IMG/VR virus record: IMGVR_UViG_3300025876_000061
Location: 1 to 35,362 of that record
Origin: a virus
Strand: one strand, 5' to 3'
Length of the DNA stretch: 35,362 nucleotides
Each line of letters begins with the position of its first letter. The first letter of the stretch is position 1. This document shows positions 12,694 through 17,253 of this stretch, piece by piece. The position numbers were made by a program, and so were the translations under genes. The notes under the pieces were generated by a model, which worked only from the letters and a program-made list of their open reading frames with translations, did no database searches and was not told the DNA's origin.

Positions 12694-12972
12694 ATGAACT
12701 ACAAAAAATTACTTCAAAACATATACGAGCGCCTAGACGACTATCGATCGGAGGAGTTCACCGAGTGTGACCTCGAAAGTCTCACCCTTTCACTAGAGGC
12801 TATTAACGAAGACCTCCATGACAACAGCAGTGACGACGAGTTCGAGCTTGTTCGCGACTGCGAAGGCAAGATCGGGGAAGCAGAGCGATTCTTCGAGGAC
12901 ATTTCCCGTCAAGAGCAAATTGACGAGGAGCTGGATCAACGAAGATACGAATCGGCAAGAAAATTTAACTAA
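12694..12972 (+). CDS. Acidic hypothetical protein, 92 aa
   Basis: A very acidic, helical protein (MNYKKLLQNIYERLDDYRSE...), predicted coiled coil in its second half (EGKIGEAERFFEDISRQEQI). It immediately precedes the methyltransferase locus. No family is recognised. Confidence 0.6.
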   Translation: MNYKKLLQNIYERLDDYRSEEFTECDLESLTLSLEAINEDLHDNSSDDEFELVRDCEGKIGEAERFFEDISRQEQIDEELDQRRYESARKFN

Positions 12973-12984
12973 GAAAAACCAAAC

Positions 12985-13749
12985 ATGACATGGCACACAA
13001 AAAACTCAACACATTCCACCTCTTCGCGGGGTGTGGAGGCGGCATTCTCGGTGACCTCTTACTTGGACACAATCCAATCGGAGCTTGCGAAATCGAACCC
13101 TACCCAAGGGACGTCCTCCTCGCAAGACAGCGTGATGGAATCTTGCCAAGCTTCCCCATCTGGGACGACGTGGCAACCCTCAACGGAAATCCCTGGCGCG
13201 GATCAGTTGACGTTCTTTGCGGAGGATTCCCCTGCCAAGACATCAGTGCGGCGGGAACTAGAAACGGAAGCCAGCTTGGAATTGAAGGAAAACGCTCTGG
13301 CTTGTGGAAGGAATATGCGCGACTCATTGGCGAGATGCGGCCTAAGTTCGTCTTTGCCGAAAACTCTCCGCTTCTACGCACTAGAGGACTTGCCGTTGTC
13401 ATCAAAGACCTTGCCAGCATGGGGTATGATGCAAGATGGTGTGTATTGGGAGCCGGTCAATTCGGTGGCATACACCATAGAAAACGACTTTGGGTGCTGG
13501 CTTCCAACCGTAACTTGCAGCATGAAAAACGGAGCGGCGAGAAACAGATTTTTCGGGTCGCCAACTTATCGGGCCTGTTACCCGCAGGAATGGATAAGAA
13601 CGAGCGAGAGTTGCGATTGCTACTTACACGCGGACTATGCAGATGGCCTAATCGCCTTCCCTCACAAGTGGACAGACTTAAAGCCGCTGGAAATGCACAA
13701 GTTCCTGGAGTGGCAGCAAGCGCATTCAATATTCTCTCAGAAGGACTAA
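12985..13749 (+). CDS. Overlapping ORF conserved in pattern, 254 aa
   Basis: This ATG-to-TAA frame lies 5 nt upstream of the methyltransferase frame at both ends, so the two 254-codon genes share 760 bp in different frames. By memory the product resembles a recurring set of phage and bacterial hypothetical proteins: ADQLTFFAEDSPAKTSVRRE (74-92), GRNMRDSLARCGLS (108-121), LPAWGMMQDGVYWEP (143-157), then FGCWLPT and IAFPHKWTDLKPLEMHKF near the C-terminus. A stop-free run of this length in a second frame is unlikely by chance. Function is unknown. It may be a true overprinted gene, or an ORF kept open by constraint on the methyltransferase codons. Confidence 0.5.
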   Translation: MTWHTKNSTHSTSSRGVEAAFSVTSYLDTIQSELAKSNPTQGTSSSQDSVMESCQASPSGTTWQPSTEIPGADQLTFFAEDSPAKTSVRRELETEASLELKENALACGRNMRDSLARCGLSSSLPKTLRFYALEDLPLSSKTLPAWGMMQDGVYWEPVNSVAYTIENDFGCWLPTVTCSMKNGAARNRFFGSPTYRACYPQEWIRTSESCDCYLHADYADGLIAFPHKWTDLKPLEMHKFLEWQQAHSIFSQKD

Positions 13750-13754
13750 TCTAA
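12990..13754 (+). CDS. dcm: DNA (cytosine-5-)-methyltransferase
   Basis: A 254-residue C5 methyltransferase that transfers a methyl group from S-adenosylmethionine to cytosine. Motifs: FAGCGGG (I, 12-18), the EIEPYPRDVL acidic AdoMet contact (34-43), GGFPCQ with catalytic Cys82 (IV), ENS (VI, 124-126), HHRKRLW (VIII, 162-168), and GNAQVP (X, 234-239). All catalytic motifs are present. The region between VIII and X, which holds the target recognition domain, is only about 65 residues, so the enzyme is compact. Its product probably protects phage DNA from host restriction. The gene lies almost entirely under a second ORF in another frame. Confidence 0.92.
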   Translation: MAHKKLNTFHLFAGCGGGILGDLLLGHNPIGACEIEPYPRDVLLARQRDGILPSFPIWDDVATLNGNPWRGSVDVLCGGFPCQDISAAGTRNGSQLGIEGKRSGLWKEYARLIGEMRPKFVFAENSPLLRTRGLAVVIKDLASMGYDARWCVLGAGQFGGIHHRKRLWVLASNRNLQHEKRSGEKQIFRVANLSGLLPAGMDKNERELRLLLTRGLCRWPNRLPSQVDRLKAAGNAQVPGVAASAFNILSEGLI

Positions 13755-14144: not shown

Positions 14145-14651
14145 ATGAAATCAAAACAAACCACAGTAAATAATATCGAAATCACCGTCCATTCAGATGG
14201 AAGTATCACTAAGCCCTTTTACAGTAGGACCAAGCGCACCTTCGGCTATAAGGATGGGAACGGTTATATGTTAATTAACATCGGCGCGAAAATGTTTCAC
14301 ATGCACCGCATCGCCGCCCAAGCATTCTTATCTGACTTCTTTGATTATCCAAGCGTTGATCACATTGATGGCAACAAGACAAACAACGACATCAGTAATC
14401 TACGAATGGCAACGATTCAGTTTCAGCAAATGGCACATATGACTAAGAGCAAAGGGAGCAGTTCCCAGTATCGTGGAGTTTGCTGGTGCAAGAATTGCAA
14501 GAAATGGAAGGCACAAGGTAGGATCGATGGCAATGTGAAGTATCTTGGCCTCTTTGACGACGAGCGCGAAGCCGCTATAGCCCGTGACACCTACGCATTT
14601 AGCCAAGGATATCCTCTGGAGGGTCTCAACTTCCCCGAGAACTACGCTTAA
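14145..14651 (+). CDS. HNH-AP2 homing endonuclease-like protein, paralogue 1
   Basis: A 168-residue free-standing endonuclease-like protein. Central HNH motif: MHRIAAQAF, then VDHIDGNKTNNDISNLR (residues 66-82). The C-terminal AP2 DNA-binding domain shows SQYRGVCW, WKAQGRIDGNVKYLGLFDDE and EAAIARDTYA. Such genes spread by cutting cognate sites that lack them. It is closely related over its full length to the gene at 16744. It lies next to repeat copy B. The N-terminal 45 residues (NNIEITVHSDGSI) look like a small beta module. Confidence 0.88.
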   Translation: MKSKQTTVNNIEITVHSDGSITKPFYSRTKRTFGYKDGNGYMLINIGAKMFHMHRIAAQAFLSDFFDYPSVDHIDGNKTNNDISNLRMATIQFQQMAHMTKSKGSSSQYRGVCWCKNCKKWKAQGRIDGNVKYLGLFDDEREAAIARDTYAFSQGYPLEGLNFPENYA

Positions 14652-16743: not shown

Positions 16744-17253
16744 ATGAAATCAGTAGAGCTAAAGATCAACGGAGTGAACATTACAGTCCATTCGGACAAT
16801 TCAATCAGTAAGCCGAATCATAGGTTCAAGGACAAGCGTATTCAGCGCACGTTCGGGACTAAGCACCACAGTGGCTATATGGTAATCAAAATCGGCGGGA
16901 AAGTGTTCAAAATGCATCGGGTCATTGCCCAAGCATTCCTCCCAGACTTCCACGATTTTCCTCAAGTCGATCATATTGACGGCAATCGCTCAAATAACAA
17001 CATAAACAATCTCCGCATGGTCACGAACCAGCAGAACGGTAGAGCGCATAAGCGCAAATCCAAAGGATGCTCCTCGCAATATCGTGGTGTCTATTGGGAC
17101 AAGATTTGGAGGGCATACTGTAGAATAGATGGCAATCTAAAGCATCTCGGCTCCTTCGACAGCGAACGTGAAGCTGCCATAGCTAGGGACACATACGCTT
17201 ACTCTCAGGGCTTTCCGCTCGAAGGTTTAAATTTCCCAGAGAATTACAGTTAA
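16744..17253 (+). CDS. HNH-AP2 homing endonuclease-like protein, paralogue 2
   Basis: A 169-residue paralogue of the protein at 14145, with the same three parts: N-terminal module (NGVNITVHSDNSI), HNH (MHRVIAQAF, VDHIDGNRSNNNINNLR) and AP2 (SQYRGVYW, YCRIDGNLKHLGSFDSE, EAAIARDTYA). The closing GLNFPENY is shared. It is the last gene before the convergent terminators. The pair points to duplication or repeated invasion. Confidence 0.88.
   Translation: MKSVELKINGVNITVHSDNSISKPNHRFKDKRIQRTFGTKHHSGYMVIKIGGKVFKMHRVIAQAFLPDFHDFPQVDHIDGNRSNNNINNLRMVTNQQNGRAHKRKSKGCSSQYRGVYWDKIWRAYCRIDGNLKHLGSFDSEREAAIARDTYAYSQGFPLEGLNFPENYS

Follow-up and report, generated by a model that had tools for sequence, protein, structure and literature searches.

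A single phage locus probably encodes a two-subunit C5-cytosine methyltransferase whose genes are superposed in two reading frames, with frame B as the catalytic part and frame A as the small domain; to this reading, which is built on sequence comparison, we assign a probability of about 0.87. The locus is situated in the window, namely the whole stretch of viral DNA analysed here (35,362 nucleotides). According to the open reading frames of the window, frame A (12985-13749, + strand) and frame B (12990-13754, + strand) each run for 254 codons from ATG to TAA, and A is the +1 frame relative to B. Their overlap of 760 bp (12990-13749) covers 760 of the 765 bp of B, while both the starts and the stops lie 5 nt apart, the start of A being upstream, exactly as the first-pass annotation had described them. 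The features of the locus are as follows.

12965..12984, +, A-rich leader ATGACATG, common to both start codons, without a Shine-Dalgarno sequence
12985..13749, +, ORF A, putative small subunit, 254 aa, phrog_1008 / phrog_26627 family
12990..13754, +, ORF B, C5-cytosine methyltransferase large domain, 254 aa, with motifs I-VIII and X and without IX
13023..13043, +, B motif I (FAGCGGG)
13224..13247, +, B motif IV GFPCQDIS including the catalytic Cys; the +1 frame here reads DSPAKTSV
13359..13367, +, B motif VI (ENS)
13464..13502, +, B motif VIII region (GGIHHRKRLWVLA)
13492..13623, +, A small-domain stretch LPTVT...NRFFGSPTYR..., counterpart of the VIII-IX (target-recognition) region in single-chain relatives
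13624..13680, +, A motif IX (LHADYADGLIAFPHKWTDL), diverging from the family consensus LNPxWVEWLMGWPxGWTDL
13668..13706, +, B motif X (VDRLKAAGNAQVP); the +1 frame here is the C-terminal tail of A

No clear Shine-Dalgarno sequence was found before A/B or before the other main genes of the window, whose leaders are rich in A and C (CAACTAACCAACCAATAAA-ATG, for example); this suggests a host without reliance on such sites. A helicase loader and a DnaB-type helicase, the latter recognised by eye from its translation, are present shortly upstream of the locus, a position that fits phage DNA modification. Two HNH endonucleases with AP2-like domains are also located near the methyltransferase (14145-14651 and 16744-17253, both +). 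As well, the terminase large subunit (503-2593, -; PF03237, E 1.5e-6) carries an apparent intein, for which PF14890 matched residues 101-226 at E 1.9e-6, weaker than Pfam's own cut-off.

Motif content of the two frames

Frame B matched the Pfam family PF00145 (E 2.2e-28) and phrog_363 (E 5.7e-55), and its predicted fold is the large domain of HaeIII/HhaI (pLDDT 78.7, pTM 0.77). Motifs I-VIII and X are present in B, as in a large subunit of the M.EcoHK31I kind, whereas monomeric enzymes such as HhaI and HaeIII have the full set, IX among them, on a single chain. A canonical motif IX was found in none of 90 B homologues, and the alignment of the B family profile with M.HhaI was limited to residues 12-179, which correspond to motifs I-VIII. 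B had initially been taken for a full C5-methyltransferase; it is indeed a C5-methyltransferase, but not a full one, because motif IX is absent.

Motif IX, which B lacks, is carried by A, an identity of the second frame that was missed in the first-pass annotation. Frame A matched phrog_1008 (E 2.2e-8), a family named 'DNA methyltransferase' and matched by all 78 A homologues, as well as phrog_26627 at its C-terminus (E 2.6e-5). The conserved block of the A family, LNPxWVEWLMGWPxGWTDL, is located at the C-terminus and is motif IX, although the copy in the window diverges from this consensus. Homologues of A were detected by tblastn in 26 phage records with 25-38% identity, and the earlier proposal that the second frame belongs to a family known from phages holds. 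No Pfam family matches A, and PF00145 is blind to the A-type motif IX even in the single-chain Mycobacterium phage Rita gp76. A search of the A sequence against the PDB returned a single match at chance level, while AlphaFold2 prediction of A alone gave a pLDDT of 51.5 and a pTM of 0.19. An alignment of six A sequences proved too divergent for seeding a scan.

Constraint on the stop-free second frame

About 100 viral loci were chosen on B alone (106 for the open-run measure and 90 after dereplication). Almost all of the 106 homologues keep the +1 frame open over the length of the gene, and the open run round motif IV has a median of 268 codons in +1 versus 20 in +2. When synonymous codons were shuffled inside each B gene, a null that is descriptive rather than exact as the homologues are related to one another, 4.7 stops per gene were expected in the +1 frame, which is nevertheless stop-free in 85 of the 90 dereplicated homologues. 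The N-terminal half is stop-free in 86/90 (3.1 stops expected) and the C-terminal part in 85/90 (15.7 stops expected), while no stop depletion was found in the +2 or antisense frames of B homologues. Second-frame stops or indels among homologues had been named beforehand as grounds for rejecting a deeply conserved overprinted pair; the outcome was the opposite, and the claim of such a pair is supported.

In the window, the same shuffling of B predicts 5.65 stops in the +1 frame, and every one of 200 shuffled versions contained at least one. The odds of 1 in 100,000 given earlier were derived from a uniform-codon null and do not stand, since synonymous shuffles of B give a few per thousand for a single gene. 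The decisive evidence against chance is the repetition across homologues and not the single-gene odds. As for the start codons, A begins 4 nt past B in 45/86 homologues, mostly as ATGAATG, and 5 nt ahead of B, as in the window, in 8/86; in several phages, a shorter A begins close to motif IV.

The conservation of blocks by frame is a clearer test than dN/dS. Over motifs I-VIII, identity is 0.59-0.75 in frame B versus 0.40-0.42 in frame A, and over motif X it is 0.64 versus 0.43. In contrast, A outdoes B at motif IX, ahead of X (0.65 versus 0.52), and the variable region before motif IX shows 0.17 in A versus 0.13 in B. The N-terminal half of A over motifs I-VI, with an identity of 0.41-0.42, is not above the unused frames (0.38-0.63); as A over motifs I-VIII is no better conserved than frames that are not used, this half looks like an open, loosely constrained extension.

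The dN/dS evidence for selection on A is moderate. In 11 close pairs, which are non-independent and differ by 1-12% of nucleotides, dN/dS in the +1 frame was 0.30 (0.23-0.39) for changes altering B and 0.24 (0.18-0.33) for the others, compared with 0.84 (0.36-1.38) and 0.53 (0.28-1.05) for the same two ratios in flanking single-frame genes. A near-neutral ratio in the second frame had been proposed earlier as a sign against a coding role; the close pairs speak for selection, whereas the first ratio in 15 independent pairs of up to 22% divergence was 0.68 (0.58-0.80), near the flanking-gene control. Values at 20-30% divergence were set aside, as they were saturated and one of the two ratios was uninformative. 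The excess of identity over codon shuffles was likewise rejected as proof of selection on A, because it is not frame-specific (0.137 in +1 and up to 0.122 in the others).

These data bear on the alternative, already raised in the first-pass annotation, that conserved methyltransferase codons passively keep the +1 frame open and that A is not a protein. Some 'motifs' of A are indeed dictated by B, such as WGMM under MGYDA, and neither the conservation of the N-terminal half nor the identity excess distinguishes A from other frames. However, stops are depleted in +1 alone and far beyond what codon usage would give, and A leads B at motif IX. Moreover, the +1 frame is closed in methyltransferases whose own frame holds a canonical motif IX, and single-chain enzymes hold the C-terminal part of A in frame, so that a passive origin appears exceedingly unlikely.

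Architectures and occurrence in phages and cellular genomes

To sample architectures, IMG/VR genes were selected solely by the nucleotide sequence of motif IV, in two spellings. Among the matches listed, there were 201 complete phage C5-methyltransferases, of which 163 show the A-type motif IX in +1, and 159 of these 163 are open from motif IV to IX. A canonical motif IX in the methyltransferase frame was found in 14/201, none of which has IX in +1, while the A-type motif IX is inside the methyltransferase frame in 6/201 and in the +2 frame, apparently frameshifted, in 3/201; no motif IX was recognised in 15/201. The overlapping pair thus proves to be the commonest layout among the sampled phage cytosine methyltransferase genes in the matches listed. 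Both frames are conserved and open, motif IX lies either in A or in B, and single-chain and successive relatives share the same parts.

The A profile matches, in frame, the C-terminal parts of single-chain enzymes (L200, 1.5e-11; L263, 2.8e-10; Rita gp76, 1.3e-10; and also L188), as well as the second gene of the actinophage pairs TygerBlood gp79/gp78 and Lilbooboo gp32/gp33. Motifs IX-X of L263 align without gaps to canonical IX-X, with 14 of 35 residues identical (40%). In L200 and L422 (Rita gp76), the +1 frame keeps an A-like N-terminal half (TWPxxGMTRSG...LLPTP), with the small domain now in frame 0, as if these genes had arisen by fusion from an overlapping ancestor. Tentatively, at somewhat less than even odds, the full-overlap genes may be both the prevailing and the older form of phage C5-methyltransferases, the single-chain phage forms may stem from them by frame fusion, and the small domain may evolve in a frame of its own over the variable region, so that target specificity could diversify without loss of the catalytic frame.

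A programmed ribosomal frameshift from B into A past motif VIII might also yield a single chain, which would join motifs I-VIII with the small domain of A, and in the actinophage successive genes (L421 and L423) the second frame does go on into motif X. However, motif X of the window lies in B, and a fusion of B to A would be without it. In most members, A has its own start beside that of B (45/86 of the ATGAATG type and 8/86 at 5 nt upstream), and A is already open ahead of any site at which a shift would be useful. In addition, canonical enzymes place 17-22 residues between IX and X, and single-chain relatives about as many, whereas 107/152 overlapping cases have 10 codons, a spacing expected of motifs on separate chains but awkward to explain with a single frameshifted chain. 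Frameshifting is therefore considered very unlikely.

Both frames were open and overlapping in the five phages inspected, which infect Pseudomonas, Vibrio, Bacteroides, Paenibacillus, and Stenotrophomonas. Annotators of the phage records of A homologues chose one frame or the other, some records carrying the A-side frame instead of B, while Lily is annotated for both. Beyond phages, 53 bacterial and archaeal loci were chosen on motif IX of A alone, including Pseudomonas, Acinetobacter, Halomonas, Verrucomicrobia, Patescibacteria, and an Alkanophagales archaeon, and a methyltransferase is present in the -1 frame in essentially all of them. The seeming exceptions in bacteria have a changed motif IV (L116, L135, L141, and L156) or a frame break (L142, L145, and L146). 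No A apart from a B frame was found among these 53 loci.

It might be supposed that B is active alone and that A does a different job, perhaps as a regulator or a counter-defence factor, given that A has no Pfam match and that its N-terminal half is unlike any known methyltransferase domain. Nevertheless, motif IX is missing from B in all examined homologues, the C-terminal part of A is the small domain of single-chain relatives, and A was not found away from a B frame among the 53 bacterial and archaeal loci; we consequently give a separate role very little probability.

Matches were present in 11 of 274 genomes of one class, the seed genome counted. The pair is also carried by prophages in E. 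coli PT62 and PCP07014, with B alone annotated there, and by plasmids of Acinetobacter, Leptospira, and Bacteroides, with B alone annotated in an Acinetobacter plasmid. In E. coli PCP07014 (L169:2981-3742), an internal stop interrupts the methyltransferase frame and A is shortened too, a joint damage that fits the decay of both together. In one bacterial relative (L417:93-2120), an apparent intein splits motif IV of the methyltransferase frame at its catalytic Cys, and the overlapping A starts after the intein.

Proposed enzyme and comparison with known systems

Under the preferred two-subunit reading, frame B would encode a large subunit that binds S-adenosylmethionine and catalyses the reaction (motifs I-VIII and X), and frame A a small subunit whose C-terminal half would comprise the target-recognition region and motif IX. 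Both chains would be produced in parallel from one mRNA, via two neighbouring start codons behind one leader, and A and B would assemble into one heterodimeric enzyme. This enzyme may methylate the phage's own DNA, probably protecting it against host restriction. We infer the translation of A, the assembly, the activity, and the biological role from sequence features.

About four in five of the sampled complete phage C5-methyltransferases, among the matches listed, seem to hold half of their enzyme in a usually unannotated frame. If so, such genes cloned singly may look inactive, catalogues of phage methylation may be incomplete, and the name 'DNA methyltransferase' of phrog_1008 would designate the small subunit. 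The locus would clearly exemplify two frames that overlap almost completely and code for parts of one enzyme, and the single-chain, successive, and overlapping forms provide a natural comparison set for studying the origin of such overlaps.

As a general phage arrangement, this overlap was not found in the open-access literature searched, where M.EcoHK31I (specificity YGGCCR) and M.AquI (specificity CYCGRG) were the only precedents to appear. M.EaeI is presumably another two-polypeptide C5-methyltransferase, grouped with M.EcoHK31I. Lee, Kam and Shaw are said to have described in 1995 an EcoHK31I small polypeptide of about 176 aa, encoded in an alternative frame inside the large gene, and the putative small subunit of the window similarly lies in another frame within the large-subunit gene. 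M.EcoHK31I consists of two polypeptides, with motifs I-VIII and X on the large one and motif IX alone on the small one, and its predicted target-recognition domain was assigned to the large subunit (PMC3404938). The window is alike in this anatomy as described, with IX on the small chain and the other motifs on the large one. Unlike M.EcoHK31I, A of the window spans practically all of B (760/765 bp) with ends 5 nt apart, the target-recognition region seems to be in A, and the phage genes occur without a visible restriction enzyme.

In the split C5-methyltransferase M.AquI, one subunit carries motifs I-VIII and its partner IX-X (PMC3404938). TygerBlood gp79/gp78 and Lilbooboo gp32/gp33 resemble it, having motifs I-VIII in the first product and IX-X in the second, and motif X is on the small subunit in L421 and L423, whereas in the window the large subunit B keeps motif X and the genes fully overlap. 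The single-chain Rita gp76, L200, L188, and L263 share the order of motifs I-VIII, a small-domain region (mostly of the LPTP type), IX, and X; they differ in being one chain with the +1 frame closed over the small domain. In phages Lily (gp62/gp63) and Likha (gp51/gp52), both frames are annotated, Lily gp63 bearing the remark 'g62 internal gene', but A is shorter than in the window, with its start near motif IV. Both products are named DNA-cytosine methyltransferases in the genome paper, in a listing without comment on the overlap (PMC6070908). Taken together, the closest known case is M.EcoHK31I, and what is new here is the end-to-end overlap and its dominance among the sampled phages.
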